Shown here: positions 17,420 through 52,326 of the stretch, one piece after another
Layout: every line of letters begins with the position of its first letter
Numbering within the stretch: position 1 is the stretch's first letter
Assembly (NCBI RefSeq): GCF_029222925.1
Contig: NZ_JARHUI010000002.1
Coordinates: 372,001-436,000 of the forward strand
Length of the DNA stretch: 64,000 nucleotides
Direction of reading: 5' to 3'
DNA from: Algoriphagus sp. CAU 1675
GTDB lineage: Bacteria > Bacteroidota > Bacteroidia > Cytophagales > Cyclobacteriaceae
Program-made: the position numbers and the translations under genes
The notes under the pieces: generated by a model
The model's input: the letters and a program-made list of their open reading frames with translations, nothing else
The model's database searches: none
Told to the model about the DNA's origin: nothing

Positions 17420-18451
17420 ATGATCATTTACACTTTTCCAGTTCGGACTGCCTTTATCGACCGGGACTTGGAAATGATCAGCCCTTCGGAAAAAATCAAA
17501 GCTTTAGAGTTTACTCAAAGCCCGATCCAACTACCCTTCTTCCTTATAATTCAGTTTTTTCAATTACTCTGGTTTCTTCCCCGAACCAGCCAGTATCTCT
17601 GCTTTTTTGGGGGGTATCACAGCGTACTCCCTGTATGGTTCGGAAAACTTACCGGAAAAAAATGTACCATTCAGGCCGGAGGAACAGATTGTATCAACAT
17701 GCCGGAAATAGGTTATGGGAATTTTCGCAAAAAATGGCTCCGAAAAGCCACCGTGTATTCCTTTAAAAACTGCAGCCTGATCCTACCAGTGGCTGAAGCC
17801 CTGGTTAGACAGGATTACCATTTTGACCCTCAATTATCATCCAAACAGGGCTTATTGAACTTAATCCCTGATTTAAGCACACCAATTCAGGTGCTTCACA
17901 ATGGGTTCGATAGTGGATTTTGGAAAAACTTCGGGAGGAATAGGCGGAATTTCAGTTTTATATCGGTAGCGACCGGAACATCGAAGTCCTCAAGAGCCAG
18001 GATAAAAGGAAATGATTTGATTGAGGAATTGGCAAAAAATCATCCCTCCTGGAGTTTCACTTTGGTTGGGGACTCCGACTATCAAACCAAAAATCTGAAC
18101 GTACTGGTGATTGGAAAGCAAAAACCGGAGCAACTGCTTGAACTCTATAACCAACACCAGTTTTACCTTCAGTTGTCAACTTCCGAAGGGTTTCCCAACT
18201 CCTTGGGAGAGGCCATGGCATGTGGATGCATTCCTATTGGATCTTCAGTAGGAGCCATACCGGAAATCATCGCTGACACAGGATTGATTCTTGAGACCAA
18301 GAATTTGGATCAGCTGGAATTCCTTATTTCTACCCTAAATACTCTAAACCTGGATACACTTTCGCAAAAAGCATCTCAAAGAATAGAAAAGGATTTTAGC
18401 TATGAGAAGCGAAAACAAGGCCTTTTGGCAGCACTTGACCTTCCCTATTGA
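17420..18451 (+). CDS. GT4-type glycosyltransferase
   Basis: A 343-residue glycosyltransferase of the GT-B fold. The N-terminal half holds a donor/acceptor domain (KCTIQAGGTDCINMP); the C-terminal half has the GT4 pattern SEGFPNSLGEAMACGCIPIGS followed by GAIPEIIADTG, where the ExxxxE motif binds the sugar nucleotide. No signal peptide; probably cytoplasmic. It lies after the leuS terminator and overlaps the end of the convergent Crp/Fnr gene by 7 bases. The sugar and acceptor are unknown. Confidence 0.88.
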   Translation: MIIYTFPVRTAFIDRDLEMISPSEKIKALEFTQSPIQLPFFLIIQFFQLLWFLPRTSQYLCFFGGYHSVLPVWFGKLTGKKCTIQAGGTDCINMPEIGYGNFRKKWLRKATVYSFKNCSLILPVAEALVRQDYHFDPQLSSKQGLLNLIPDLSTPIQVLHNGFDSGFWKNFGRNRRNFSFISVATGTSKSSRARIKGNDLIEELAKNHPSWSFTLVGDSDYQTKNLNVLVIGKQKPEQLLELYNQHQFYLQLSTSEGFPNSLGEAMACGCIPIGSSVGAIPEIIADTGLILETKNLDQLEFLISTLNTLNLDTLSQKASQRIEKDFSYEKRKQGLLAALDLPY

Positions 18452-19098
18452 AGCAATTTGATCTGGTGACGGTTTACAGTCAACATTCCCTTTAATTCCA
18501 ACTTCTTTAATAGTCGGGTGATCACTTCCCTGCTGGTATTCAACTCTTGAGCGATTTGCTGATGGGTTTTGTGAACAATTGATGAATGACTGACTTCTGC
18601 ACTCTTTTCTAGATATTCCAGTAGCCTCTCATCCATTCGGTGAAAAGCAATACTATCGACCACTTTAAGTAATTCATCAAATCTATGCTGATAGGTATCC
18701 ATCACAAAATAAAACCAGGAAGGATATTTTGCCATCCACTCCTCAAATTTCGTGACGGGGACAATAATCAGAGAGGTATCCTCTTCTGCAATCGCCTTAA
18801 TCTTGGAATACCCTTCTTTTGCTGAGCAAATCAAGGTAACAGCACAAGCCTCTCCAGGTCCCAGGTAATACATGAACAATTCATGGTCATGATCATCTTC
18901 ACTTTCACGGAAGACTTTTACCAAACCTGATACGATCAGGGGAATTTTTTCCACTTTTTGGCCAATCTCCATCATGAGCGTATCAGCCGTGATGTCCACA
19001 ATCTCCCCACTTTCTACAATTTCCGCCGCCAATTCTCCTTGGAAATCGGGGAATTGATAATTCAGCAGGTTTCTTATTTCTGTTTTGGAATCAATCAT
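18445..19098 (-). CDS. Crp/Fnr-family transcriptional regulator, possible thiol sensor
   Basis: A 217-residue regulator: cyclic-nucleotide-type beta-roll (about 25-125), dimer helix (about 130-165) and Crp-type winged HTH (about 170-215). The recognition helix reads TSREVITRLLKKLE; Arg190, Glu191 and Arg195 match the three residues with which E. coli CRP reads TGTGA. The phosphate-binding RS of the cAMP pocket is absent; the region reads PGEACAVTLICSAKEG with Cys85 and Cys91, so it probably does not bind cAMP. Palindromes TGTGAY-N4-RTCACA occur at six promoters in the window, one of them 107 bases before this gene. I infer it is their activator. The signal, possibly a persulfide or redox change at the cysteines, is speculative. 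Confidence 0.93.
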   Translation of the reverse strand: MIDSKTEIRNLLNYQFPDFQGELAAEIVESGEIVDITADTLMMEIGQKVEKIPLIVSGLVKVFRESEDDHDHELFMYYLGPGEACAVTLICSAKEGYSKIKAIAEEDTSLIIVPVTKFEEWMAKYPSWFYFVMDTYQHRFDELLKVVDSIAFHRMDERLLEYLEKSAEVSHSSIVHKTHQQIAQELNTSREVITRLLKKLELKGMLTVNRHQIKLLQ

Positions 19099-19204
19099 AA
19101 TCTAGAGCAATTTGGAAAATCCACCTGCATCACTTTCCACAGCTAGGCAGATATTCCATTTCTTTTTATAGGATCCAAATTAACTGCTCAAATACTCTTT
19201 TTTG

Positions 19205-19249
19205 GGTGATGAAAATCACTGCTTATCAAGGTTTTTTGGCCGAAATTTC
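19205..19249 (+). promoter_or_regulatory. Crp/Fnr-type operator and weak -7 box for the DUF2202-cytochrome operon
   Basis: GGTGAT-GAAA-ATCACT (19205-19220) is a 5-base perfect inverted repeat fitting TGTGAY-N4-RTCACA with the two outer bases changed. GAAATTTC (19242-19249) stands where the -7 box is expected; its last base is 36.5 from the palindrome centre. The site lies between the regulator gene and the DUF2202 gene and could also act on the regulator. Confidence 0.55.
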
Positions 19250-19273
19250 TCTAAGACTTAAAAACCAAATATC

Positions 19274-19888
19274 ATGAAACGCTTATTCACATTAGCATTC
19301 GTGTTGCTTTCATTTGCCTCCTGTAATGAAGACAATGACAAGGACCCGGTTATCGTACCACAGATCAGCAACACAGTAAAAGAGACTCTTCTCTTTACTA
19401 GAGAAGAGGAGAAAATGGCCCACGATGTATATGTTTATGCTTACTCCAAGTATGATATTCTGGCATTTCAAAACATTGCAAACAGTGAGTCCCAGCACGT
19501 AGCGGCCGTATTGACCAATATGGACAGGTTAAATCTGGAAGACCCATTAGATGGTAGCACCCTTGAAGGTGAGTTTACAATTCCGGCCATACAAACCTTG
19601 TATGCAGAATTGATTGAACGAGTAGATCAATCTCATCAAGAAGCCCTTCTGGTAGGCCTTTACATTGAAGACCTGGACATCAAAGATCTTCAGGATGCCA
19701 TAAAGGAAACCAGTGATGAGACATTGAAATCTATGTATGAAAATCTAATGTGCGGTTCCAAAAACCACATGAGATCATTTGAAGGACTTGCATCCTTCCT
19801 AGATCTCACCTACACCCCAGAATTTATAACTCAGGCGGAGTATGACCTGATCATCAGCACACCTGTGACAACTTGCAGTAGTAATTAA
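19274..19888 (+). CDS. DUF2202 ferritin-like lipoprotein
   Basis: A 204-residue lipoprotein (MKRLFTLAFVLLSFASC, Cys17). The mature part is the DUF2202 helical bundle: FTREEEKMAHDVYVYAYSKY, NIANSESQHVAAVL and SDETLKSMYENLMCGSKNHMRSF. The Glu and His residues (REEEKMAH, SESQH, KNHMR) look like a ferritin-like metal site. The function of the family is not established. It precedes a cytochrome c gene by 12 bases and carries a Crp/Fnr-type site upstream, suggesting a role in periplasmic redox stress. Confidence 0.88.
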   Translation: MKRLFTLAFVLLSFASCNEDNDKDPVIVPQISNTVKETLLFTREEEKMAHDVYVYAYSKYDILAFQNIANSESQHVAAVLTNMDRLNLEDPLDGSTLEGEFTIPAIQTLYAELIERVDQSHQEALLVGLYIEDLDIKDLQDAIKETSDETLKSMYENLMCGSKNHMRSFEGLASFLDLTYTPEFITQAEYDLIISTPVTTCSSN

Positions 19889-19900
19889 AAAAGTTAACCA

Positions 19901-20356
19901 ATGAATTTAACCCCCATTCTTATTGCATTCCTGGCATTTGGCCCAATCACGGAAAACGGCAACCCCAAAAGCCCTGAGGCAAAGCAAGAGTTCAAACAGC
20001 CCGAAAATCAGGATTTAGATGGTTTGGTATTGCTTAAGAAGTATTGCTACGTATGCCACAACCCCAATTCTGCATCCCATGATGAAATGTTGGCCCCACC
20101 ACTGTTTGGGATCAAAAATCATTACCTAAAAGCTTTCCCGGAAAAAGGAGCTTTCATTGATGCAATGAGCGATTTTATCAAAAATCCAACCGAAGAAAAA
20201 GCGCTCTTAAAAGGACCAGTTAATCGATTTGGCCTAATGCCAAGGCCTGCTGTCAGCGATGAGGAAATAGAGGTAATCGTAACATACATAAAGGATAATC
20301 AGCTTGAAAAGCCAAAGTGGTTTGACAAGCATCATCAGGGAGTAAATGAAAACTAA
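19901..20356 (+). CDS. Small c-type cytochrome
   Basis: A 151-residue exported protein with one haem-binding motif CYVCH (Cys49, Cys52, His53) and a likely distal ligand in FGLMPRP. The N-terminus (MNLTPILIAFLAFG) is a short signal sequence or anchor. It is an electron carrier outside the cytoplasm, cotranscribed with the DUF2202 gene. An electron-accepting role for the thiosulfate dehydrogenase elsewhere in the window is possible through the shared operator, but this is inference. Confidence 0.87.
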   Translation: MNLTPILIAFLAFGPITENGNPKSPEAKQEFKQPENQDLDGLVLLKKYCYVCHNPNSASHDEMLAPPLFGIKNHYLKAFPEKGAFIDAMSDFIKNPTEEKALLKGPVNRFGLMPRPAVSDEEIEVIVTYIKDNQLEKPKWFDKHHQGVNEN

Positions 20357-20379: not shown

Positions 20380-20424
20380 TGTGATAGTGATCACAATCTG
20401 TTTAGGAACTTGACTGTAAATTTG
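20380..20424 (+). promoter_or_regulatory. Perfect Crp/Fnr-type operator plus -7 box of the peroxiredoxin gene
   Basis: TGTGATAGTGATCACA (20380-20395) is a perfect 16-base palindrome of CRP type. TAAATTTG (20417-20424) is a perfect -7 box, with its last base 36.5 from the palindrome centre. There is no TTTG at -33, as expected for activator-dependent class II promoters. Confidence 0.75.
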
Positions 20425-20458: not shown

Positions 20459-21109
20459 ATGATGGAAAATCAAGTTTTAACCATGCCTAGAATCGGAGAT
20501 ATGGCTCCAGATTTCGAAGCAATGACGACCACAGGAAAAATTAAATTTTCTGACTACATCAAGGACAGCTGGACTATCCTATTTTCACACCCTGCTGACT
20601 TCACGCCTGTATGTACCACTGAGATGAGCGGTTTTGCTCTGGATCAGAAATTCTTTGATGACCATGGCACCAAGCTTATTGGTCTGAGCATTGACTCTAT
20701 TCATGCGCATATTGCCTGGGTAAACAATGTCAAGAAAAACACAGGGGTCCTATTTGAATTCCCAATCATCGCTGACATTGACATGAGCGTTTCCAAACTC
20801 TATGGAATGCTTCAGCCTGGTGAAAGTGAAACAGCGGCAGTTCGGGCAGTATTCTTTATCGATCCAGCTGGAAAAATCAGGCTAATCATGTACTATCCTC
20901 TGAATGTGGGAAGAAACATGGAGGAGATCAAAAGAGCTTTGATAGCATTGCAAACAGCTGATCAATATAAAGTTGCTATGCCTCTAAACTGGAAACCGGG
21001 TGAAAAGGTAATTGTTCCCCCACCAAAAACAGTGGAAGAGATGAAAGAAAGAGAAGCCAGTGATTACGAAATGGTAGACTTCTATCTGGCTAAAAAAGAC
21101 CTAGCATAA
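20459..21109 (+). CDS. 1-Cys peroxiredoxin (Prx6 type)
   Basis: A 216-residue thiol peroxidase of the AhpC/TSA superfamily. The active-site segment is PADFTPVCTTE with peroxidatic Cys52; the C-terminal domain (PLNWKPGEKVIVPPP) is the extended Prx6-type arm. No second conserved cysteine in the resolving position is seen. It reduces H2O2 and organic hydroperoxides in the cytoplasm; some peroxiredoxins also act on persulfides. Two consecutive ATG codons (20459, 20462) are possible starts. It is monocistronic, with its own Crp/Fnr-type promoter and a strong terminator. Confidence 0.95.
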   Translation: MMENQVLTMPRIGDMAPDFEAMTTTGKIKFSDYIKDSWTILFSHPADFTPVCTTEMSGFALDQKFFDDHGTKLIGLSIDSIHAHIAWVNNVKKNTGVLFEFPIIADIDMSVSKLYGMLQPGESETAAVRAVFFIDPAGKIRLIMYYPLNVGRNMEEIKRALIALQTADQYKVAMPLNWKPGEKVIVPPPKTVEEMKEREASDYEMVDFYLAKKDLA

Positions 21110-33193: not shown

Positions 33194-34390
33194 TTAATTG
33201 ACAAATGTTATCGCTCGTCCGGTTTTTCCGGCTCGTCCAGTCCTGCCTATTCTATGAATATAGCTATCCATAGTCATAGGAAGCTGATAGTTGATCACAT
33301 GGGACACATCAGCTATGTCTATTCCTCTAGCTGCCACGTCTGTAGCCACCAGCACCCGAGTTTCTCCCTTTTTAAACTCCTCTATCATCCTGTTTCGAAA
33401 ATTCTGGGACTTATTACCATGGATCAACCCTGATTTAATCCCTGAATGATTCAGTTTCTTACTAAGTCTATCCGCCAAGCGCTTGGTCTCAGTGAAAATG
33501 ATCACCCTATCCATCTGCTGATCTTCAAACAATTGAGTCAAGAGTGAGAACTTTTCTTCACCTTCACGTACCCTGATTATTTCCTGATCCACATTTTGAC
33601 TCGCAGTCCCACCGGAACTGACTTTCACTTCCACTGGATCCTGCAAAATACTGTCAATCAAATCCTTCTGCCCTGCCTCCAGTGTCGCTGAGAAAAGCAT
33701 TGTCTGATTCCGGCGAACCATAGAATTAACAAGCTTTTTTACATCATGGACGAAGCCCATGTCCAGCATCCGGTCAAACTCATCCAAGACCAGGGTCTCG
33801 ATTTTGTTCAAATGCAATAATTTTCTATTCGACAGATCCAATAATCTACCCGGAGTTCCAACCACTAAATGAAGTTTTTTCTCCAAAGCCTTAAAATCTG
33901 TATTGATATTGGTCCCGCCAATAAATGTAGCTGAATGCAAATTCATCCCTTTGCTGAGACTTTTGAATTCTTCTTCAATCTGAAGGGCCAGTTCTCGAGT
34001 AGGCGTAACTACCAAGGCTGAAAACACCTTAGGGTTTTTCATCGCCTGCTCAATGATAGGGATTAAAAAAGCAGCTGTTTTACCGGAGCCCGTATTGGAA
34101 ATTCCCAAAAGATCTCGTCCCTCCAAAAGTGGGGAAATGGTTTGTTCCTGTATACTGGTCATACTTTCGTAGCCTTTATTTTCTAGGTTTTTCAAAAGGG
34201 CAGTATGCAGCTTCAAAGTATGAAAAGGAGTCTCTGTCCTAAATCCTGCTTCTCCACTTGACTCAGCTTTCTTTACCAATAAACTGGGGTCCAGTTTGGA
34301 AACTTTTTTGGCATTTTGAGAAGGTCTTTCTTTTGGCCTTGAATTCCTATTAGAAGAGACTCTTGGTTTATTTCTATTGTTTGAATACAT
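33194..34390 (-). CDS. DEAD-box-family RNA helicase, RhlE type with DEFD motif
   Basis: A 398-residue helicase. Motif I is SNTGSGKT (Lys104), Ia PTRELALQ, motif II is DEFD (203-206) instead of DEAD, motif III SAT, and motif VI HRIGRTGRAGK. The Q motif region is FHTLKLHTALLKNLENKGYESMTSIQEQ. An N-terminal tail rich in Asn/Arg/Ser is probably disordered. The protein ends at AITFVN just after motif VI, shorter than many RhlE proteins. It leads the cold-shock operon, fitting a role in unwinding RNA structure in the cold. Confidence 0.92.
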   Translation of the reverse strand: MYSNNRNKPRVSSNRNSRPKERPSQNAKKVSKLDPSLLVKKAESSGEAGFRTETPFHTLKLHTALLKNLENKGYESMTSIQEQTISPLLEGRDLLGISNTGSGKTAAFLIPIIEQAMKNPKVFSALVVTPTRELALQIEEEFKSLSKGMNLHSATFIGGTNINTDFKALEKKLHLVVGTPGRLLDLSNRKLLHLNKIETLVLDEFDRMLDMGFVHDVKKLVNSMVRRNQTMLFSATLEAGQKDLIDSILQDPVEVKVSSGGTASQNVDQEIIRVREGEEKFSLLTQLFEDQQMDRVIIFTETKRLADRLSKKLNHSGIKSGLIHGNKSQNFRNRMIEEFKKGETRVLVATDVAARGIDIADVSHVINYQLPMTMDSYIHRIGRTGRAGKTGRAITFVN

Positions 34391-34934: not shown

Positions 34935-36281
34935 CTAATTCAGTCTCCAATTAATAATTCCATTGACATGGATCATTTCGATTTTATTGTACCGCTGAGC
35001 GGGAGTTAAAGCCTCATTCCTCAAGGCTTCTTTGTTCATCACCAGAAAGTGAAAGTCCAAATTTTTATACTTCTTCGGTTGGTATTTTACGCCAACATTT
35101 ACCTGCTTGTACGAAGGGAAGGCGTATTTATTACCAGCCACATCTCCTACAAATGGTAGCCAATGAAATCCCCAATGGTTGTAAACGGTCAAGTTAATTT
35201 CTGGAAAAGTATACTCCGCATATGCCACTAAAGCCTCGAAGTTTTCATACCCTTCATTTCGTTCCCTTGGCACAAAGGTATACCAAGCATCTTTTCCCCA
35301 TTCCCGGGGATTAAGCCAACGGCCTTTCCCTCCAGCTTTTGTGAAATTCAAATGAGCCAACCAACCGGACTTTTTGTACCCAAATCTGGCTGAAAACGAC
35401 CAGTTCTGGTCATTTGGGTCTTTATATCTTAATTCAGGATTTGAGTTCCCCCCATTTCCAATACCATGCTGGTAGCCTGCTATAAGTCCTGTAATCCAGG
35501 CACTTTGGGGATCACTACCAGGCCAGTTTGCATCCCATCTCAACCAATATGTATTGAAAATATTGTGCGCAAGGGTGTGAGAAAAGTGAAGGTTTCCTTT
35601 GTTCAATTTCCTGTCTACTTCAAGGACCGTCAGCCTTTCGCTACGGGTATTTCCATAATATCCAGAAGGTCTTCCCTCGGGATCCCTTGCCACAGGAAAT
35701 ATACCAATTGTTTCACCGGGATTGAGCCATTCACTGGTTCCTCTGACATTGAGACGATCAATATACCATCCTGTGATTTTCCAGTTGGAATCAGCTTGGA
35801 TTTTGGCTTTCAAACCTTCCACTGCTGTGGGCGCCAATCTTCCATCCTGACCATTGATCCAATCGGAATTGATCGGCATCCTCCCGACAGAAAGCTCCAA
35901 TTTCCCAGATTTATAATCCAAGTGTAAGGTTTCCAATTTGCCAAAAAAGCGATCCTTGGGATTTAGCAAATCATACAGGCCCCGTTCGTATCGGTTATTA
36001 CGACCTGACAATGGGTCTATTCCCCAAATATCAGAACTCCACACATTTGAAATGTACCGATAACCAAATTCAAAGGACCAATTTTGTTTGTATTGAAAGG
36101 AGGCCCCCAAGTTAATGGAGGCCCCTAAGGAATAATCATCCTTAAAATCTTCTGCATAAGAGGTACTCATCCAAAACGTCCTAAAATTGACTTTGGGTGT
36201 TACACTCAGAGCTTTTTCAGGTTGTTGGGCTAAAACGTGAATTGACAAGAAGGTCAATAGCCCAACGGCAGCTAGTTTCAT
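34935..36281 (-). CDS. Outer-membrane porin cotranscribed with tsdA
   Basis: A 448-residue beta-barrel with a signal peptide (MKLAAVGLLTFLSIHVLAQ). It resembles OprD-type specific porins. It is clearly a distant paralogue of the porin at 40741-42129: both share GRNNRYE / GRGNRYE, a GNGGNSNP / GDGGNPDP loop and NPREWG / FPREWG. Its ATG overlaps the tsdA stop as ATGA. From context it may pass thiosulfate, tetrathionate or a related anion; sequence alone does not show this. Confidence 0.82.
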   Translation of the reverse strand: MKLAAVGLLTFLSIHVLAQQPEKALSVTPKVNFRTFWMSTSYAEDFKDDYSLGASINLGASFQYKQNWSFEFGYRYISNVWSSDIWGIDPLSGRNNRYERGLYDLLNPKDRFFGKLETLHLDYKSGKLELSVGRMPINSDWINGQDGRLAPTAVEGLKAKIQADSNWKITGWYIDRLNVRGTSEWLNPGETIGIFPVARDPEGRPSGYYGNTRSERLTVLEVDRKLNKGNLHFSHTLAHNIFNTYWLRWDANWPGSDPQSAWITGLIAGYQHGIGNGGNSNPELRYKDPNDQNWSFSARFGYKKSGWLAHLNFTKAGGKGRWLNPREWGKDAWYTFVPRERNEGYENFEALVAYAEYTFPEINLTVYNHWGFHWLPFVGDVAGNKYAFPSYKQVNVGVKYQPKKYKNLDFHFLVMNKEALRNEALTPAQRYNKIEMIHVNGIINWRLN

Positions 36282-37339
36282 TCAGATTTAGCTTTCGCTT
36301 CTTGAATTGGTTTGAAAGGACCATATTTATGTTGTTCCTCTGAGAAACCGTCGCTATAAGGTCCAAAAGGATGATCCATAGGCTTTTTGGAAATATCAGG
36401 CCAATCTCCTGCTAGGCTTTTCGAAGGTCTCTCCAAGCTGTTCACATAGGCCGCCACATCCCATGCTTCTTCATCGGTAATCAGTGGGTTCTCATAGGTG
36501 GCTCCCAAAGGCATATTGGCACGAACATATCCGGCAAAACGGGACAATCTATAAAGCCCTGCACCGCTATTGTAGCTATGATCTCCCCAAAGTGGTGGAT
36601 AGATATATCCGGAACCATCTTGCTTAGGCATACCTTGACCATCTGCACCATGACAGCTTTGACACTGATTCTCATAGACGGTTTTCCCTTTTATAGGATC
36701 AGCAGCTCGATCTAGCAACGGAAGAGCATAAATTCCCGATCCTTTGGGCTTTTCTCCTTTTGGAACATCTTTTCCGAGCCACTCCATGTAAGCAACCATT
36801 GCAATCATTTCCTTACTTTCTAGCTCCAAAGCATTACCATTCAAACTTCTTTCAAAACAGTCATTGATCCGCTTGGGAATATCTTCTGATTTTCCAGACC
36901 GGGCACGAACCTTAGGGTAAGTGGAAGAAACTGCTGAATAATTATTTCCTAATGGAGCTGTTCCGGCCTGAAGGTGGCAGTTTTGACAATTCAGCCCATT
37001 TGATAATTTTTTAACTTTCCCATTAGGACCGAGGTAAGCCGCGGTATTGGCGATCAATTCTTTACCATATTTGATATCCTCCGCATTAGGTTCTTGATCA
37101 ACGGTAGCCCAATCTGGTGCTACCCACATGCCAACAGGATCCATCAGTGGCTTAACCTTAGGCGATTCTTCAACGGAAGCTAATATGGTCGGCTCATCAC
37201 CTCCCAATTTTGGAAGTTGAACTCCTGAATATCCCAAATAAACAACAAACCCTACAACGGCAACAAGTGCTGCTGAGAGGGCCAATAATCCCACCATCAA
37301 AGAGATTAACTGAAGAAAAGGTTTTCCAATCTGATTCAT
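36278..37339 (-). CDS. tsdA: Dihaem cytochrome c, thiosulfate dehydrogenase (TsdA) type
   Basis: A 353-residue, membrane-anchored (helix about 9-36) c-type cytochrome. Haem sites are CQNCH (Cys118, Cys121, His122) and CQSCH (Cys226, Cys229, His230). RINDCFERSLNG around Cys161 matches the TsdA segment whose cysteine is the unusual axial ligand of haem 1. TsdA oxidises two thiosulfates to tetrathionate, or runs in reverse. A start at the TTG at 37360 would lie before the predicted transcription start, so the ATG at 37339 is chosen. It is followed by a coupled porin gene (ATGA) and controlled by a perfect Crp/Fnr-type site. Confidence 0.85.
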   Translation of the reverse strand: MNQIGKPFLQLISLMVGLLALSAALVAVVGFVVYLGYSGVQLPKLGGDEPTILASVEESPKVKPLMDPVGMWVAPDWATVDQEPNAEDIKYGKELIANTAAYLGPNGKVKKLSNGLNCQNCHLQAGTAPLGNNYSAVSSTYPKVRARSGKSEDIPKRINDCFERSLNGNALELESKEMIAMVAYMEWLGKDVPKGEKPKGSGIYALPLLDRAADPIKGKTVYENQCQSCHGADGQGMPKQDGSGYIYPPLWGDHSYNSGAGLYRLSRFAGYVRANMPLGATYENPLITDEEAWDVAAYVNSLERPSKSLAGDWPDISKKPMDHPFGPYSDGFSEEQHKYGPFKPIQEAKAKSE

Positions 37340-37357
37340 AGTCCTAAAGATTCTATA

Positions 37358-37403
37358 CAAAAATGCGACATAGTTAAGCCCCTTTGCTGTGACTTACGTC
37401 ACA
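37358..37403 (-). promoter_or_regulatory. Perfect Crp/Fnr-type operator and -7 box of tsdA
   Basis: TGTGACTTACGTCACA (37388-37403) is a perfect palindrome outside the central four bases. On the minus strand CATTTTTG (37365-37358) is one mismatch from TAnnTTTG. Its last base is 37.5 from the palindrome centre. This is class II activator geometry. Confidence 0.75.
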
Positions 37404-39643: not shown

Positions 39644-40120
39644 TTAGTTGGGTAATTTGTTGGCAAATTTTCCATATACCCAAGTTCCAGCCAAAGCGGA
39701 AAGAAGGGTCACCAACACTACAGTGAATCCACTACCAATCTGGGCAAACAAAGGTCCTGGACAAGCTCCAGTCAAGGCCCAACCCAAACCAAAGATAAAT
39801 CCACCGATAATCTGGCCTTTTCTAAATTCCTTGTCAGGGATATTGATTTTCTCTCCGTGAACAGATTTGATCCCAAATCTTTTGATCACCTGCACGGATA
39901 TCACACCCACTACGATGGCAGATCCGATCACACCATACATATAAAATGAATGTAATCTGAACATTTCCTGGATTCTGAACCAAGAGATAATCTCACCTTT
40001 GGTAAAGATGATCCCAAACATGATACCGATGATCAGGTATTTTACAAGTTGTAAACCTTTTTCTTCGTAAGGTTTCTTTATGGGAGAATCCACATTTGCT
40101 TTATTTTCTGCTACTTTCAT
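39644..40120 (-). CDS. YeeE/YedE-family (DUF6691) sulfur transporter, small half
   Basis: A 158-residue membrane protein with four helices. The signature is GWALTGACPGPLFAQIG, where the ACPGP cysteine is typical of the C-terminal half of YeeE/YedE (TsuA) thiosulfate transporters. Full-length TsuA is a single chain; here the two halves are separate genes, as in PmpA/PmpB pairs. It comes 12 bases after the other half. The substrate, thiosulfate or a related sulfur species, is inferred from family and from the CstB-like and tsdA neighbours. Confidence 0.88.
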   Translation of the reverse strand: MKVAENKANVDSPIKKPYEEKGLQLVKYLIIGIMFGIIFTKGEIISWFRIQEMFRLHSFYMYGVIGSAIVVGVISVQVIKRFGIKSVHGEKINIPDKEFRKGQIIGGFIFGLGWALTGACPGPLFAQIGSGFTVVLVTLLSALAGTWVYGKFANKLPN

Positions 40121-40132
40121 TTCTTTTGTCTT

Positions 40133-40714
40133 TTAAAATCCTACCAACTTCATTAAAGGCTCCAACAACACGTGTGTCATAAAGAAACCACCGATCATAA
40201 AGAAAGTGGTCGCCAATAGAGATGGCCACTGCAGGGAACTGATCCCCATAATAGCATGACCTGAGGTACAACCTCCTGCATAGCGAGCACCGAATCCAAC
40301 CAAAAAGCCTCCAACTACGAAGAACAAAAGACCTTTACCAGTAAGGAGATTTTCCCAACTGAAGATATCAGAAGGCAATAAGCTAGTGAAGTCCGTAATT
40401 CCCAAAGCTGTCAAATCCGCCTGCGTAGCTTCAGAAACCACAATGGTCTCTGGGTTAGCTAAGAAATTGGTCGCTATAAAGCCTCCGATCAAGACTCCAA
40501 GTACAAAGAGTAAGTTCCAAATTTCTTTCTTCCAGTTGTAAGTGAAGAAAGGAATTCCAGCTGGCACACAGGCAGCACACATGTGTCTCAAGGAAGAAGA
40601 AATCCCGAAGGTCTTATTCCCGAGTATTAATAAAGCCGGAACTGTCAGTCCGATCAATGGCCCGGCAACATACCATGGCCAGGGTTGAGTAATCCATTCC
40701 ATAAATTGAATCAT
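40133..40714 (-). CDS. YeeE/YedE-family sulfur transporter, large half
   Basis: A 193-residue membrane protein with about five helices. Two family cysteine motifs are visible: MCAACVPAGIPFF and GARYAGGCTSGHAIMG, the latter the best conserved motif of the YeeE/YedE family, whose cysteines relay thiosulfate through the pore. Together with the smaller partner gene it should form one transporter. It starts 26 bases after the porin stop, so porin and both halves form one operon. Confidence 0.9.
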   Translation of the reverse strand: MIQFMEWITQPWPWYVAGPLIGLTVPALLILGNKTFGISSSLRHMCAACVPAGIPFFTYNWKKEIWNLLFVLGVLIGGFIATNFLANPETIVVSEATQADLTALGITDFTSLLPSDIFSWENLLTGKGLLFFVVGGFLVGFGARYAGGCTSGHAIMGISSLQWPSLLATTFFMIGGFFMTHVLLEPLMKLVGF

Positions 40715-40740: not shown

Positions 40741-42129
40741 TTAAAACCTGTAATCCAAAATAAGACTAAGGTTCGCCATGTTTACACGATTAATAACATA
40801 CTCTAAAGGCAGGTGTGCATCCAGGTTTTCATGCTTATAAACTGCAAGAAACTGCAAATCCAAACCTTCAAAATATCCCTTAAACCTATAATCAACCAAG
40901 CCGCTGAAATGGAAGTAATTTGGAACTCCATATTTATTCAGCAAAAGATTATTCAAATCCGGTGTTTGACTATGTGATGCTCCGAATGAAAACATCAATT
41001 GATCATGTATAAATGTCTGATCATATCTAAGCATGAGGGTGTTCACACCTCCCAGTCCATCAAATCTTTCTCTTTGTAGGGAAACAAAGAACTGCTCTCT
41101 GCCCCATTCTCTTGGGAACAAAAAGCGACCATTATGCGAAATCCCCAGGTAATTTATGGAAAGTTCTGAATGTCCCCAGTTCAATCCTGCCTTTAGGCCT
41201 CCACCGAACGTGTTTTCCCCCGGCATGATATACGTCAGGGAAGGATCTGGATTTCCTCCATCTCCAACAGCTGTTTCATAGAACCCCTGCGCACCCCAAA
41301 CCAGATCGAGACCCGGTTTTAACTCATTCCTTCCTGTGCTTTCCAGAAAAGTAATGTCAAACATTCCTTCCGCGAGGTAATTCCAGGCTTTAAACTTCAG
41401 GTCTTCTTGTTCATACTCGAGTCCAAGAGAGCCTATACCTTTAGAACGAACATGGTGATGGTAGCTTTCATCTACCCCATAAGGGTTTCTTCCTGTAGAA
41501 TAAAAGCCCAAAGACTCCTCGACTGGAAGCCATTCCAAAGAACCTCTGGAAATCAGGTGAGTAAACCAGGCTCCGGTTACTTTCCAATCCCCAAACTTAT
41601 AGTCTCCGGAAACCCCACTGAAGAGGTTGGGACGGAGTCTGTTATCAGCGGCATTTAGAAGCGGGCTCTCGAAGTGGTGTCTACCTGCCCAAACCGAAAC
41701 CTTGTCGTTGAGATAGGAAATGTAAAATTCTTCCAATCTATCCATATCCTTGTGGTTTTCCGGATGATGGACATCAAACAAGGTGATTTCATATCGGTTT
41801 CCACGACCTGTAATAGGATCTTCAATAGTGATGTTGTTTTCAAAATGTCTGAAAACAAAGAACCCACTGAATCCCACTCCAAATCCTTTCCATCTGGGGC
41901 TGAAATAGCCAAGCCCTGCACCGGTTCCCCAAGTAGAATAATCGGTAAGTTCCCCTTCGTTCAGCGTACTCATGAAGTACGAACGAAGATGAAACTCGAA
42001 AGAACCAGCCTTCAAATCTCTTCCAAAGAGTTTTTCATCAGAATCACTTTGAGCACTTTCATTCCAATGCTGAGCAAAGGATTGCAGGGCAAAAAGTGAC
42101 AGCGTAAAGACTAGGATCAACGATCTCAT
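40741..42129 (-). CDS. Outer-membrane porin of the sulfur-transport operon
   Basis: A 462-residue beta-barrel starting MRSLILVFTLSLFALQSFAQ (signal peptide). An in-frame ATG at 42162 is upstream of the predicted transcription start at about 42133, so the ATG at 42129 is used; the leader would then be only a few bases. It is a distant paralogue of the tsdA-linked porin (shared GRGNRYE, GDGGNPDP, FPREWG). The order porin-yeeE-yeeE suggests it lets thiosulfate or a related anion through the outer membrane. Confidence 0.83.
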   Translation of the reverse strand: MRSLILVFTLSLFALQSFAQHWNESAQSDSDEKLFGRDLKAGSFEFHLRSYFMSTLNEGELTDYSTWGTGAGLGYFSPRWKGFGVGFSGFFVFRHFENNITIEDPITGRGNRYEITLFDVHHPENHKDMDRLEEFYISYLNDKVSVWAGRHHFESPLLNAADNRLRPNLFSGVSGDYKFGDWKVTGAWFTHLISRGSLEWLPVEESLGFYSTGRNPYGVDESYHHHVRSKGIGSLGLEYEQEDLKFKAWNYLAEGMFDITFLESTGRNELKPGLDLVWGAQGFYETAVGDGGNPDPSLTYIMPGENTFGGGLKAGLNWGHSELSINYLGISHNGRFLFPREWGREQFFVSLQRERFDGLGGVNTLMLRYDQTFIHDQLMFSFGASHSQTPDLNNLLLNKYGVPNYFHFSGLVDYRFKGYFEGLDLQFLAVYKHENLDAHLPLEYVINRVNMANLSLILDYRF

Positions 42130-42137
42130 TTCAATTT

Positions 42138-42183
42138 CAAATTTGATAGGACTTGCCTTCATTTTCTTGTGACTAAGGTCACA
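42138..42183 (-). promoter_or_regulatory. Perfect Crp/Fnr-type operator and -7 box of the porin-yeeE operon
   Basis: TGTGACTAAGGTCACA (42168-42183) is a perfect CRP-type palindrome with arms TGTGAC/GTCACA. CAAATTTG (42145-42138, minus strand) is one mismatch from TAnnTTTG. The distance from palindrome centre to the last -7 base is 37.5, the same as at tsdA. Confidence 0.75.
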
Positions 42184-42260: not shown

Positions 42261-43682
42261 TTACAAGAGGGTAGTTGGACAAACGTAGTCACTTACCTTG
42301 AATTTTTCAGACTCTTTGATAGCCTTGAATCCTCCAGCTATATCGATAAGATTGTCATAACCTCTCGCTCTCAAGATAGAGTTGAAGATCATGGATCTGT
42401 ATCCACCGGCACAGTGTACGTAATAAGTCTTATCCTTATTTACTTTAAGCATGCTGTCGTTGATGTAATCAAGTGGAGCATTTTCAGCATCAATAACGTG
42501 CTCTGACAAGAACTCGGAATTCTTTCTTACATCCAGGATATTGATATCTGGGTTCTCTTCTTTGATTTTTGCAAGCTCATCTACACTGATGGACTTGATT
42601 TGATCAATTTCATGACCACTTGCTTTCCAAGCATCAAAACCTCCTTTGAGGTATCCGATGGAATAATCATATCCTACTCGGGCCAATCTTGTGATAACCT
42701 CTTCTTCTCTTCCTTCGTCAGCAACTACCAGAATTTCTTGCTTCAAGTCAGGAATCATAGCACCAACCCATACCGCAAAACTTCCGTCAATTCCGATATT
42801 TACAGAGTTAGGGATAAATCCTTTTGCAAAATCCTGTGCATCTCTGGTATCCAAGATCAAAGCACCTGTTTCATTTGCAGCAACCTCAAACTCAGTAGGA
42901 GTCAATGGTCTCACACCTCTTTCCAACACCTCATCAATGCTGTCATATCCTTGGATATTCATCATTACGTTTTGAGGGAAATATGCAGGAGGAGGAGTCA
43001 AACCGGTAATTACTTCCTTGATAAACTCTTCCTTGGTCATATCCTGAAGTGCATAATTGGTTTTCTTCTGGTTACCAAGTGTATCGGTAGTCTCCTTGCT
43101 CATGTTTTTACCACAAGCAGAACCTGCGCCGTGTGCTGGATAAACGGTCAAATCATCTGGAAGAGGCATGATCTTGTTTCTCAAGGAATCAAACAGGTGG
43201 GCTGCCAATTTTTCCTGAGTCAAATCCTCAACAACTTTCTGAGCTAGGTCCGGACGACCTACATCTCCGATGAAGAGAGTATCACCAGTGAAGATTGCTT
43301 CTTCTTTTCCTTCTTCATTTGTCAAAAGATAACATACAGACTCCATGGTATGACCAGGAGTGTGGATCACTTTGATTTTGGCTTTGCCCAAAGTGAATTC
43401 CTGTCCGTCTTCTGCAATGATGGCATCAAAGCCCATTTTCATTCCTGTTGGGCCGTAAACAATCTTAGCACCAGTCTTAGCTGCCAAATCTTTGTGACCG
43501 GAAACGAAGTCAGCATGGAAGTGTGTTTCAAACACATATTTGATCTTAGCATTTCTTCGCTCGGCCTTTTCGATATAAGGCTGTACTTCTCTAAGCGGAT
43601 CAATTACCGCTGCTTCTCCTTCAGACTCGATGTAATAGGCTCCTTGAGCTAAACATCCGGTGTAGATTTGTTCTATTTTCAT
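42261..43682 (-). CDS. Persulfide dioxygenase-rhodanese fusion (CstB-like)
   Basis: A 473-residue cytoplasmic enzyme in three parts. (1) ETHE1-type metallo-beta-lactamase fold: THFHADF (His54, His56, Asp58), His111 in HTPGHT and Asp134 in FTGDT; iron ligands by analogy are His54, His111 and Asp134. (2) A pseudo-rhodanese (about 255-355) with no cysteine in its loop (VVADEGREEE). (3) An active rhodanese (about 365-465) with Cys424 in HCAGGYRS. Cys190 (GSACGKNM) matches the extra cysteine of CstB. Staphylococcal CstB has this architecture and makes thiosulfate from persulfides. A degenerate Crp/Fnr-type site controls it. Confidence 0.92.
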   Translation of the reverse strand: MKIEQIYTGCLAQGAYYIESEGEAAVIDPLREVQPYIEKAERRNAKIKYVFETHFHADFVSGHKDLAAKTGAKIVYGPTGMKMGFDAIIAEDGQEFTLGKAKIKVIHTPGHTMESVCYLLTNEEGKEEAIFTGDTLFIGDVGRPDLAQKVVEDLTQEKLAAHLFDSLRNKIMPLPDDLTVYPAHGAGSACGKNMSKETTDTLGNQKKTNYALQDMTKEEFIKEVITGLTPPPAYFPQNVMMNIQGYDSIDEVLERGVRPLTPTEFEVAANETGALILDTRDAQDFAKGFIPNSVNIGIDGSFAVWVGAMIPDLKQEILVVADEGREEEVITRLARVGYDYSIGYLKGGFDAWKASGHEIDQIKSISVDELAKIKEENPDINILDVRKNSEFLSEHVIDAENAPLDYINDSMLKVNKDKTYYVHCAGGYRSMIFNSILRARGYDNLIDIAGGFKAIKESEKFKVSDYVCPTTLL

Positions 43683-43720: not shown

Positions 43721-43765
43721 CAAAATTATCTTGGCTCGGCTTCCCCTAAAATGACTTTTGTCACA
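43721..43765 (-). promoter_or_regulatory. Crp/Fnr-type operator and -7 box of the CstB-like gene
   Basis: AATGACTTTTGTCACA (43750-43765) has one perfect arm and one arm with two changes. TAATTTTG (43728-43721, minus strand) is a perfect -7 box, 36.5 from the palindrome centre to its last base. Confidence 0.6.
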
Positions 43766-48732: not shown

Positions 48733-50328
48733 TTAGGCGTTTACCAATTTTCTGGCAGCCAAATGATGACTGGATACCGCTTTATGATTTTCCAGACCGA
48801 TGATTTTCACTGTACCACCGTGCTCCTCATATTCATGCTGGAAATGATGGAGATTCTCCATTACGGAGTGATCCACCAGCTTGGTATTTTTAAGGTCGAT
48901 AGTCACATTGAAACCGGCTGGGATTTCTTCCAGCTTTCTTTTGATTCCCAAAAAGTTGGAAAAAACTGCGGCTTTATCGATTTCCACCAAATACTCGTTT
49001 CCTTCAAATGAAACTACTGTTGGAGCTTTAAAGAATGAGCTGATCGGAGTTCCGTTGATCAAATGGATGATCATTTTCAACACAATACCCGCAGCAATTC
49101 CAACCAACAAATCTTCGAAAATGGTGAAGAAAATAGTCACCAAGAAAATTGCCAATTGCTCTTTTCCGATTTTGAATGTATTAACAAACTCTTTAGGGTG
49201 AGCCAACTTGATACCTACAGTGATCAACATGGCAGCCAAAGCCGCATTTGGGATCATCTCAATAACAGGGGTAGCCAAAAGCACAAACAACAAAATGAAG
49301 AATCCATGGAAGAAGTTTGCCCAACGGGTTTTAGCGCCACTGTTGACATTGGCAGAACTACGGGCTACCTCAGAGATCATTGGAAGTCCTCCCAACAAAG
49401 CAGCCAAAGTATTACCAGCCCCTACTGCAATCAAATCCTTATCATTATTGGATTTTCTCTTATAAGGATCCACCAAGTCAATGGCTTTGACTGTAAGCAA
49501 GGACTCTAGAGTACCAACCAAGGCAAACATGATCACATATTTGATAAATACCCCAGCCTGAGATATACCAGAGAAATCCGCATTGAATTTCACGTTTTCA
49601 ACAAAGTTCCCGATATGAAGCAATGCATATGCAGGTTCTGTATGTTCAAAATCCATAATCAACTCAGCAGGAATAGCGATCAACAACACCACCAATGGAG
49701 CGGGGATTTTCTTGATAGTCTGGTTTTTGATATAAGGCCAACCCATCATAACCGCCAAACTGACTGCCCCGACTAAAGTGGCTTTGGGGTCTAGATTGGC
49801 AATAAACTTCGGAATGGAAGAGATCATACCAAACACGCTTAATCCTTTGTACAACTCTGGATTCACATCCAAAAGTACAGGAACCTGTTTCGCGATGATG
49901 ATAATACCAATCGCTGCCAACATACCGTGAATTGCAGAAAGGGGGAAAATATCGGCAAGCTTTCCTAGTTTGAAAACCCCAAACAGGATCTGTACCAAAC
50001 CTGCAACCACCATGGCACCGAGCGCAAGTCTCCAACCTGCTTCACCACCTCCAAATTCGGCAACGGATCCCGCTACCACGACAATCAGACCAGCAGCTGG
50101 ACCTTTGATGGTCATTCTGGAACCTGCAATAAAGCTTACTACTAAACCGCCAATAATAGCGGTCAACAAACCCATGATAGGCGGGAAATCAGAGGCCTTG
50201 GCAATACCCAAACTTAGAGGCATTGCTAATAGGAATACAACAAATCCGGCAGTAGCATCTGCTGACAAATTTTCTTTAAATCCTGCCCATCCGTCTTTTG
50301 GGGCCTGGAGTTTTGATGAATTTTTCAT
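48733..50328 (-). CDS. SulP-family anion transporter with STAS domain
   Basis: A 531-residue inner-membrane protein: cytoplasmic N-terminus, about 12-14 membrane helices starting DATAGFVVFLLAMPLSLGIA, and a C-terminal STAS domain (about 440-525, VEIDKAAVFSNFLG, LVDHSVMENLHHF). SulP proteins carry sulfate, bicarbonate or other anions; the BicA group takes up bicarbonate with Na+. Placement directly after dabA-dabB suggests bicarbonate, which is inference; sulfate remains possible given the sulfur module 5 kb away. A 48-base gap to dabB holds the perfect hairpin GTGAGG-GTT-CCTCAC (50350-50364). Confidence 0.9.
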   Translation of the reverse strand: MKNSSKLQAPKDGWAGFKENLSADATAGFVVFLLAMPLSLGIAKASDFPPIMGLLTAIIGGLVVSFIAGSRMTIKGPAAGLIVVVAGSVAEFGGGEAGWRLALGAMVVAGLVQILFGVFKLGKLADIFPLSAIHGMLAAIGIIIIAKQVPVLLDVNPELYKGLSVFGMISSIPKFIANLDPKATLVGAVSLAVMMGWPYIKNQTIKKIPAPLVVLLIAIPAELIMDFEHTEPAYALLHIGNFVENVKFNADFSGISQAGVFIKYVIMFALVGTLESLLTVKAIDLVDPYKRKSNNDKDLIAVGAGNTLAALLGGLPMISEVARSSANVNSGAKTRWANFFHGFFILLFVLLATPVIEMIPNAALAAMLITVGIKLAHPKEFVNTFKIGKEQLAIFLVTIFFTIFEDLLVGIAAGIVLKMIIHLINGTPISSFFKAPTVVSFEGNEYLVEIDKAAVFSNFLGIKRKLEEIPAGFNVTIDLKNTKLVDHSVMENLHHFQHEYEEHGGTVKIIGLENHKAVSSHHLAARKLVNA

Positions 50329-50349
50329 TAGGATAAATATTTTTTAAAG

Positions 50350-50364
50350 GTGAGGGTTCCTCAC
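50350..50364 (-). repeat. Short hairpin between dabB and sulP
   Basis: GTGAGG and CCTCAC pair perfectly around GTT. There is no T run, so it is more likely an RNA-stability or expression-balancing element than a terminator. Confidence 0.45.
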
Positions 50365-50376
50365 TTTGGATATGAC

Positions 50377-52326
50377 TTAATTAGTTGACTTGGTTGATTT
50401 GAAGGCAAGTCCCCTTCTGTTTCTTGAGCTGCCTAAAGAGAATTTTCCCCTTCCTCTTCTGGAATAATCATCTTCTTCGGTGATGTCTAGTTTAGTCCCC
50501 AGGAATAATCTGGCGAATATCCTGACTGTCACCACTCCTTCCATGACAAAGGCAAGAGCAGCGAAGAGCGCCAGGAAGAATTGATCATCTTTGATATGGG
50601 AGAAAAGAAGGTCCACACCCAAGAAGGTTGGTGAAAGTGGGAATCCCATTAATCCAAGAGCACTGAGCAAAAACAGGAATGCCGGCACAGGATACCGTTT
50701 CACATATCCCTGATACTCATATAGTCCAGACTGACCTGTTTTGGCCTTCAACCAGGAAATAATTCCCAGTCCGCTCAAGCCAAAAACGATAACACCGCTC
50801 ATGTAGATCGCAATTTCCCCCAAAGCAAACTGCTCATTCTCAGCAATCGCCAAGACCATCCACAAATGGTTCATGATAAGCAGAGTCCAGCTGAGTCGAG
50901 CAGACCTCCTTTCGGAAAAAGCCTTCAGCACCATCAACAAGGCAATGAATGAAAAGACAAAGGGTAAATAGAAATGGATGCTTTCCGGAATATTATATCC
51001 TATGACTAGCAAAACCACTCCCACCAAATAACTTGGCACGAAGTAAAAAAGAACTGATTTATAGGTCAGAAAATCCAACTTGTGCCCCAGACTTTTAAAA
51101 GGCCTAAAGACCAACTTGTTCATCAGCTTATCCAGGTTCCACTCCTTGATGCTCCATATATAGAAAGAAAGGAACAAGCGCTGGCTTAATCCGAATCTCT
51201 TTTTCTTTTCCTGAGGCTCAAACTCATAAAATTGCTCTCGGATCAGGTAACTTACAATAGAAGGAGAAACCAGCAATTGATAGGTTCTGAGGAAAGCATT
51301 TCCTGCAAAATGGATCAATGCGAGTACCTCAAATCCCGCTGCCACTTCTATAAACATGATCCCGATCTGGGTAAGCGATGCATAACCGACCTGAGTTTTC
51401 ACGGAGGTTTGTACTCTCGCAATCATAGTGGAAAGCACCGCCGTGATCAATCCTATCGCTCCGATAATGAATCGTACTGCTATTTGATTTTCCCAGAATG
51501 GGAAAGTTCTCAACAGTAGAAACACACCCAAATGAACAGAAAGGGAGCCATAGAAAATGGCCGATGAAGGAGTTGGTCCCTCCATCGCTCTAGGCAACCA
51601 GGAAGAGAATGGGAATTGGGCTGACTTTGCAGCTGCTGCCAAAAGTAGAGCTACAGAGATAAACAGGCCGATTCCAGAATGTCCCAAAAGATGCTCAGAG
51701 ACTAATTCTGCATTGTTGAGTTTCAGGAAGGTGACGTTTTCATGCCATAGGTGGTGACTTGCCCACATGGCCAGAATCATCCCTACATCCCCTATTCTAT
51801 AGACAGAGAAAACCTTGATTGCATTTCGGGTCGGAAGGTAATTTTGTCGGTAAAAAGCCACCAAAAGAAACGAGGAAAGTCCCAAAACCTCCCAGCCTAC
51901 AAACAAAGTCTCGAAATTACCGGCCAAAACGGTCACGTTGTAGCCTAAGTAAAAGAAGAGCACTGTATTGAAAAACCGCTTGTATCCGCTTTCACGGTGC
52001 AGGTAATAACGGCTATAGAATGTGATCAAGAAGGTCAATAAAGCCCCCATCAACACATAAACCGCACTAACCCTGTCAAAGAAAAAGTCCACCAAAAACT
52101 CAAAGTCATGGGATTTGTATAGGACAATTTCCTTCAGGTTCAGGGTTTCAAAACCCTGAATTGCCCAGAAGACCAGAAATACCAGAATACTGAGCAAATT
52201 GAGTCCTGCGGTATAAAATGCCACACGGGAAAGCAAATACTCCTTCCTTTCAGGTACCAATAGGCTTAATGCAAAACCGACAAGAGGTATCCCTATCATC
52301 AGTTGAATCCAAGTTGACAATTCCAT
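50377..52326 (-). CDS. dabB: DabB-type proton-conducting membrane subunit
   Basis: A 649-residue protein of the NuoL/MrpA superfamily with about 14-16 membrane helices. Conserved antiporter features include the Glu/Lys helices around VGWEVLGLSSFLLVAFYR, SWLPRAMEGPTPSSAIFYGSLSVHLG and a His-containing HFAGNAFLRTYQLL. The ATG overlaps the dabA stop (TAATG), typical of dab operons. With DabA it forms the energy-coupled inorganic carbon pump, probably using an inward H+ or Na+ flow. The C-terminal 30 residues (SRRGRGKFSLGSSRNRRG) form an unusual basic tail. Confidence 0.88.
   Translation of the reverse strand: MELSTWIQLMIGIPLVGFALSLLVPERKEYLLSRVAFYTAGLNLLSILVFLVFWAIQGFETLNLKEIVLYKSHDFEFLVDFFFDRVSAVYVLMGALLTFLITFYSRYYLHRESGYKRFFNTVLFFYLGYNVTVLAGNFETLFVGWEVLGLSSFLLVAFYRQNYLPTRNAIKVFSVYRIGDVGMILAMWASHHLWHENVTFLKLNNAELVSEHLLGHSGIGLFISVALLLAAAAKSAQFPFSSWLPRAMEGPTPSSAIFYGSLSVHLGVFLLLRTFPFWENQIAVRFIIGAIGLITAVLSTMIARVQTSVKTQVGYASLTQIGIMFIEVAAGFEVLALIHFAGNAFLRTYQLLVSPSIVSYLIREQFYEFEPQEKKKRFGLSQRLFLSFYIWSIKEWNLDKLMNKLVFRPFKSLGHKLDFLTYKSVLFYFVPSYLVGVVLLVIGYNIPESIHFYLPFVFSFIALLMVLKAFSERRSARLSWTLLIMNHLWMVLAIAENEQFALGEIAIYMSGVIVFGLSGLGIISWLKAKTGQSGLYEYQGYVKRYPVPAFLFLLSALGLMGFPLSPTFLGVDLLFSHIKDDQFFLALFAALAFVMEGVVTVRIFARLFLGTKLDITEEDDYSRRGRGKFSLGSSRNRRGLAFKSTKSTN

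Follow-up and report, generated by a model that had tools for sequence, protein, structure and literature searches.

Several members of the Crp/Fnr superfamily of regulators put cysteine to use. FNR senses oxygen with a [4Fe-4S] cluster held by four cysteines, L. casei FLP uses a cysteine to form a disulfide, and CooA binds heme through a Cys/His pair, its cysteine being a heme ligand; both FLP and CooA have partners and targets other than those described below. Outside the superfamily, PerR and MarR proteins are said, in titles in the literature, to sense sulfane sulfur. The regulators of reactive sulfur named in the accessible parts of two reviews (PMC9774590, PMC12170894) are CstR, SqrR/BigR, FisR, OxyR, LasR, and OhrR, which come from folds other than Crp/Fnr; no Crp/Fnr persulfide sensor appears in the accessible parts of those reviews, of PMC8148161, or of PMC6195638, where CooA is treated as a Crp/Fnr member. 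A literature search found no publication on such a Crp/Fnr sulfur sensor, but it was limited and is weakened by the slash in the spelling of Crp/Fnr. Here we describe Crp1, a Crp/Fnr regulator of 217 amino acids (P0001) encoded on the minus strand at 18445..19098 of a 64,000-nucleotide stretch of the Algoriphagus sp. CAU 1675 genome (contig NZ_JARHUI010000002.1, positions 372,001 to 436,000), the whole of which is called the window. We think it reasonably probable that this genome encodes two members, Crp1 among them, of a Bacteroidota Crp/Fnr family governing sulfide and thiosulfate handling, with reactive sulfur at Cys85 as the signal.

The translated Crp1 open reading frame (ORF) matches the Pfam models cNMP_binding and HTH_Crp_2 above their cut-offs, which places it in the Crp/Fnr superfamily. 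It resembles E. coli CRP in fold, in its helix-turn-helix (HTH), in the Arg-Glu-x3-Arg residues, and, by prediction, in a TGTGA-type operator. Alignment to CRP puts the recognition helix, Arg190-Glu191-Val-Ile-Thr-Arg195, at 18514..18531 (minus strand), where the translation reads S-R190-E191-V-I-T-R195; this RExxxR helix and the predicted operator are those of a CRP-type DNA reader. The pocket differs from that of CRP. Gly71, Glu72, Arg82, and Ser83, which with their numbering we take to be the cAMP contacts of CRP, face Ala86, Val87, Lys99, and Ile100 of Crp1 in a phmmer alignment (4bh9), so that all four contacts are replaced and the pocket is not that of CRP proper; the CRP equivalog model, whose cut-off is 266, gives Crp1 a score of 48.7 bits. 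Cys85 (codon TGT, 18846-18844, minus strand) lies opposite CRP Ile70, and Cys91 (codon TGC, 18828-18826, minus strand) lies opposite Gly74; Crp1 has no further cysteines. An earlier note on this DNA had proposed a Crp/Fnr protein that reads DNA as CRP does, having lost the Arg-Ser pair of the cAMP site and gained two pocket cysteines. Translation, Pfam, and the CRP alignment confirm that description, with CRP-like reading supported by the helix residues and a predicted GTGA-N6-TCAC operator.

The closest sequence match of Crp1 is PDB 3dv8 (E. rectale EUBREC_1222, "putative" in its title; E 9e-14 by phmmer), in which both cysteines align as C-x5-C; E. rectale presumably belongs to another phylum. 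Foldseek with the predicted Crp1 structure (mean pLDDT 81.6) returned CRP-type structures, with one from T. thermophilus at the top and 3dv8 sixth. Named full-length orthologues are found in Algoriphagus; they are 66-71% identical and their loci are largely syntenic. Cys85, Cys91, and the recognition residues are retained in all 14 Crp1-like sequences aligned.

A profile of these 14 sequences, run on 296 sampled genomes of the phylum, found relatives in 119 of them, at 142 places. One hundred regions, chosen down the ranking, were fetched and represent 101 of the 142 places (one region spans two); L180 (E 5.6e-11), which is without Cys85, was not counted as a member, and thus 99 family members were examined. 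As controls, 40 Crp/Fnr loci were taken from 30 of these genomes, chosen as PF13545 matches above cut-off with an open frame shorter than ~280 amino acids and outside the family list; some are far diverged, L205 and L215 having long branches. Cys85 is present in 99/99 family members and in 0/40 controls, and both Arg190 and Arg195 are found in 99/99 members. Residue 91 is Cys in 59 of the 99 and otherwise Gly (19), Ala (13), Ser (4), Thr (2), Asn (1), or Glu (1). Cys85 is the sole cysteine in 30 members, 11 of which have sulfur genes in their locus. Cys85 is therefore the key residue, and only part of the family could make use of a bond between it and Cys91. This widespread and apparently undescribed family, which has an invariant pocket cysteine and often lies next to genes for hydrogen-sulfide detoxification, is a promising candidate for a novel type of sulfur sensor.

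The earlier note had looked to both cysteines, asking whether they are invariant and suggesting a persulfide or disulfide switch. The answer is yes for Cys85 and no for Cys91, which is absent from 40/99 members; the disulfide, as a general switch, is ruled out by the single-cysteine members, sulfur genes being present beside 11 of them. An intramolecular Cys85-Cys91 disulfide or polysulfide switch could thus apply to part of the family at most, and we regard it as somewhat unlikely: both cysteines are kept throughout the 14 aligned sequences and in 3dv8, and sulfur neighbours are more frequent with two-cysteine members (35/59) than with those lacking Cys91 (11/40; P 0.002, relatedness uncorrected), but the segment that would close the bond is modelled with low confidence. 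The cysteine count also separates the family from FNR, which has four, as opposed to two in Crp1 and one in 30/99 relatives. A conserved cysteine pair of the kind found in persulfide sensors is present in Crp1 and in the 59 members with Cys91, not family-wide. SqrR/BigR (ArsR family), CstR (CsoR-like), and FisR are, in the accessible parts of PMC9774590 and PMC12170894, regulators of sulfide-oxidation genes with sensing cysteines, BigR controlling persulfide dioxygenase and YeeE-type transport. The Crp1 family may resemble them in outline, its neighbours and predicted operators fitting control of such genes; they differ in having other folds and mechanisms with two or more cysteines, whereas the Crp1 family keeps one throughout.

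Neighbouring genes were scored by blastp at 1e-10 against the sulfur proteins of the Crp1 genome, with ~13 kb read per locus; Pfam matches bore out the TauE, Usp, CydA, and CydB names of the queries. Sulfur genes occur at 46/99 family loci and 0/40 control loci, and within the same 30 genomes the figures are 28/37 and 0/40; a looser cut-off of 1e-5 gives 55/99 and 1/40. By kind, the 99 family loci include neighbours that are persulfide dioxygenase-like (32), TauE (28), YeeE (18), SQR-like (7), CydA (12), peroxiredoxin (2), and DUF2202 (1), each of which is found in 0/40 controls, whereas Usp does not discriminate (3/99 versus 3/40). On the family tree, the 21-row clade holding Crp1 includes loci with TauE and with cydAB. 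The suggestion in the earlier note that sulfur genes are the likely targets is supported by these counts and by the predicted operators; to its question whether orthologues stand beside YeeE, CstB, or rhodanese genes, the counts answer with YeeE and persulfide dioxygenase-like neighbours.

The same neighbours bear on two other readings of Cys85. A general thiol-oxidation (peroxide or redox) sensor, in which Cys85 would form a sulfenic acid or mixed disulfide and control an antioxidant and respiratory regulon, would suit a single-cysteine design, and the Crp1 arm does have peroxiredoxin, DUF2202, and, in relatives, cydAB. We nevertheless judge it decidedly unlikely, given that the neighbours are sulfide enzymes and transporters and that peroxiredoxin is found at just two of the loci. 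A sensor of another ligand, either heme with CO/NO or a nucleotide, with Cys85 as a heme ligand or a structural residue, is brought to mind by HcpR of P. gingivalis (9day), which is among both the fold and the sequence matches. The only His among the columns conserved in >85% of the family is His179, which is in the HTH, and no conserved His is near Cys85; as the cAMP contacts are absent and the neighbours are sulfur genes, such a sensor seems improbable.

The operator of the family was sought by an unguided count of upstream palindromes. GTGAT-N4-ATCAC was found in 5/43 two-cysteine loci with Glu191 and GTAAC-N4-GTTAC in 8/16 two-cysteine loci with Val191, each in 0/40 controls; the lists also yielded A/T-rich runs, mostly present in controls too. 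The 43 Glu191 loci hold 23 exact GTGA-N6-TCAC sites (in 13 loci) and three GTAA-N6-TTAC sites (in three loci), whereas the 16 Val191 loci hold one GTGA-N6-TCAC site (one locus) and 16 GTAA-N6-TTAC sites (11 loci); controls have no GTGA-N6-TCAC sites and four GTAA-N6-TTAC sites (3/40 loci). The groups lacking Cys91 are weaker, with four GTGA and two GTAA sites in 18 Glu191 loci and with none and three, respectively, in 21 Val191 loci. Few sites take the GTTA or GTCA form; with Glu191, mixed GTGA/GTAA sites are frequent (25). The predicted family operator is thus GTGA-N6-TCAC, and with Val191 the sites tend to GTAA-N6-TTAC. Residue 191 changed at least six times on the family tree. The strongest argument linking the family to these palindromes is this covariation of the operator with residue 191. 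It looks like nature's counterpart of the CRP Glu181 specificity mutants, whose behaviour it matches, and would allow the regulon to be predicted from sequence.

In the window, predicted operators (none assigned to a strand) stand before several genes. The first, GGTGATGAAAATCACT (19205..19220), is between Crp1, 107 bases away, and the gene for a DUF2202 protein (19274..19888, plus strand; PF09968) that we take to be ferritin-like; TGTGATAGTGATCACA (20380..20395) precedes a 1-Cys-type peroxiredoxin gene (20459..21109, plus strand; AhpC-TSA and 1-cysPrx_C, with NCBIfam PRK13189 above cut-off). A third, TGTGACTTACGTCACA (37388..37403), precedes the gene of a TsdA/SoxA-like c-type cytochrome (36278..37360, minus strand; SoxA-TsdA_cyt-c and Cytochrom_C above cut-off). 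A fourth, TGTGACTAAGGTCACA (42168..42183), precedes a gene for a porin-like protein (40741..42162, minus strand), which heads those of two YeeE/YedE half transporters, a (40133..40714) and b (39644..40120), both on the minus strand with Sulf_transp (PF04143). A weaker candidate, AATGACTTTTGTCACA (43750..43765), has two mismatches to TGTGA-N6-TCACA and lies before the gene for a persulfide dioxygenase-like protein with metallo-beta-lactamase and rhodanese domains (42261..43682, minus strand; Lactamase_B and Rhodanese), which scores far below the cut-off of the bifunc_ST_SDO model.

Conservation of the stronger sites was followed in 40 genomes of the genus and in named Algoriphagus loci. GTGA-N6-TCAC stands before the porin/YeeE genes in 23/23 loci of close homologues (distant L244-L250, at ~30% identity or less, and lower hits without loci were excluded) and before the TsdA-like gene in all 30 loci fetched, which were those returned from 38 genomes with a match; both counts include the Crp1 genome itself. 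At the TsdA site, conservation is 100% at each of the eight core bases and at the base that follows 3', compared with 37-63% for the four middle spacer bases and 33-77% for the other flanking bases; at the porin gene site, the spacer is also well conserved. Of 18 genomes with such a peroxiredoxin, 15 have the site at roughly the same position, comprising 10/10 with Crp1 and 5/8 without intact Crp1. Among named Algoriphagus loci, a site is found 63-71 bases before DUF2202 in 7/8 loci having that gene, and before peroxiredoxin in 9/9 (73-81 bases in seven). Five of these loci also have a site 41 bases before Crp1, whereas the genome studied here has none at that place.

The number of sites carries no such information. 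Exact TGTGA-N6-TCACA occurs three times in the 3.81-Mb genome, always in the window (20380, 37388, and 42168), compared with once for a reversed control pattern, which is hardly above chance; GTGA-N6-TCAC occurs 33 times compared with 40 for its reversed control; and, with two mismatches allowed, the window has 28 sites where 30 are expected. Site excess was therefore dropped as evidence, and position and conservation, which are what exceeds chance, were used in its place.

Crp1 is not alone in its genome. The earlier note had allowed that other Crp/Fnr proteins may exist there, and indeed 10 PF00027 (cNMP domain) matches were found, one being a close paralogue, Crp2, which is 41% identical to Crp1 and has the same recognition residues. 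The Crp2 gene is flanked by an SQR-like gene (E 8e-73 to a type III sulfide:quinone reductase model, below cut-off) and by a Usp gene, after which comes TauE/SafE. Across the 40 genus genomes, Crp1 is present in 10 (one copy is cut by a contig end), whereas a protein 40-46% identical to Crp1, assigned by that identity to the Crp2 type, is present in all 40. A 72-amino acid Crp1 remnant (G348:C1:1732406-1732621) is near a peroxiredoxin gene that still has its operator. Where sites persist without Crp1, they must be served by a Crp2-type protein or by some other factor, and this survey rules out Crp1 as sole owner of the window sites. Of the link that the earlier note drew between Crp1 and these sites, the presence of a site at 107 bases is confirmed; the wider attribution is left incomplete by the persistence of the YeeE and cytochrome sites without Crp1 and by the residues shared with Crp2. 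For that same reason of shared residues, Crp1 may share the sites.

Crp1 relatives are mostly divergent to cydAB. In most of L006-L018, cydAB lies between Crp1 and DUF2202 or peroxiredoxin, a placement missing here (window 19098-19274), and CydA was not found in this genome in one search, made without a positive control genome. Crp1 has the appearance of a second copy confined to its lineage, one that accompanies cydAB in relatives and shares the operator. It might instead be a decaying duplicate of little role, with Crp2 alone running the regulon; its patchy distribution, the remnant in G348, the failure to find CydA, the missing site 41 bases before Crp1, and the outlasting of Crp1 by most peroxiredoxin sites (5/8) would all fit. 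We consider this unlikely, however, as the ORF is intact and close to its full-length orthologues, its cysteines and recognition residues are kept, and predicted operators are present at both DUF2202 and peroxiredoxin.

Returning to reactive sulfur at Cys85, the family gene set is much like that of the A. baumannii sulfide response, in which PDO1, SQR, TauE, cytochrome bd, and ferritin-like products are up (accessible part of PMC8148161). This match, together with the lost cAMP site and the invariant pocket cysteine, makes reactive sulfur on Cys85 the most likely signal. A Crp1 dimer would bind GTGA-N6-TCAC via Arg190-Glu191-x3-Arg195, and the cAMP site of CRP would have been rebuilt around Cys85; modification of Cys85 by a persulfide or polysulfide would then switch DNA binding or activation, persulfidation replacing cAMP as the signal. 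In members that have it, Cys91 may help to stabilise the switch or extend it through a di- or polysulfide link, but it would be dispensable in the family. The regulon would comprise the SQR-like, persulfide dioxygenase-like/rhodanese, TauE/SafE, YeeE, and TsdA-like proteins, cytochrome bd, and peroxiredoxin. Crp2 is likely the core regulator, and Crp1 may add an arm of cydAB, DUF2202, and peroxiredoxin; what the signal is, which way the response goes, and which paralogue occupies each site are all things we infer. A broader proposal is that the phylum-wide Crp/Fnr family with this pocket is a single-cysteine reactive-sulfur sensor and a main sulfide-stress regulator of Bacteroidota, with an operator code switched between GTGA and GTAA by a Glu-to-Val change at the equivalent of CRP Glu181. 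This we put forward tentatively, as a little short of an even balance. If true, a Crp/Fnr regulator would explain sulfide management in many Bacteroidota and would show a cAMP pocket put to new use in one-cysteine thiol chemistry.

Several observations weigh against this account. At the stricter cut-off, 53/99 family loci are without a sulfur gene within ~13 kb, and in one two-cysteine group that branches near the base of the tree, only 1/11 loci includes a sulfur gene. The exact GTGA site is absent from 30/43 Glu191 two-cysteine loci, four Glu191 loci (L092, L126, L131, and L171) have only a GTAA-type site, and TGCAT-N8-ATGCA, which is unexplained, was as frequent as the GTGA palindrome in the unguided count (5/43 Glu191 two-cysteine loci, 0/40 controls). 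On the tree, the site/residue contrasts that are independent number only two, agreeing or neutral with none contrary, and the cross-table P values are therefore overstated. In genomes without intact Crp1, YeeE sites persist in 13 and TsdA sites in 21, as do the five peroxiredoxin sites already mentioned. The Crp1 model has pLDDT <50 at residues 89-91, and thiol chemistry at Cys85 is a mechanism that we propose as the most likely.

The remaining features are minor. A small c-type cytochrome-like protein (19901..20356, plus strand; Cytochrom_C just above cut-off) is encoded between DUF2202 and the peroxiredoxin operator. A second porin-like protein (34935..36281, minus strand) adjoins the TsdA-like gene and is 26% identical to that heading the YeeE genes; the family models gave no match for either, and "porin-like" is a name we presume for both. 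One further GTGA-N6-TCAC, at 33491-33506, falls within what we take to be a DEAD-box gene and is probably a chance occurrence. Outside the window, the genome has 28 GTGA-N6-TCAC sites, all of which were placed relative to ORFs: two precede Crp2 and the SQR-like gene, one (GGTGATAAGTATCACC, at L037 5021, G000:C13:171420) is 64 bases before a second metallo-beta-lactamase/rhodanese gene, others are upstream of a YceI gene, a 141-amino acid ORF, and an 85-amino acid ORF, and the remainder are within ORFs. The site at the start of the 141-amino acid ORF is at L035 3061 (G000:C12:87860), and by eye this ORF is like the small gene beside cydB in L006. Finally, window 48733-54824 holds, in a row, SulP-like, NuoL-like, and large DUF2309-like genes, presumably like an inorganic-carbon uptake set.
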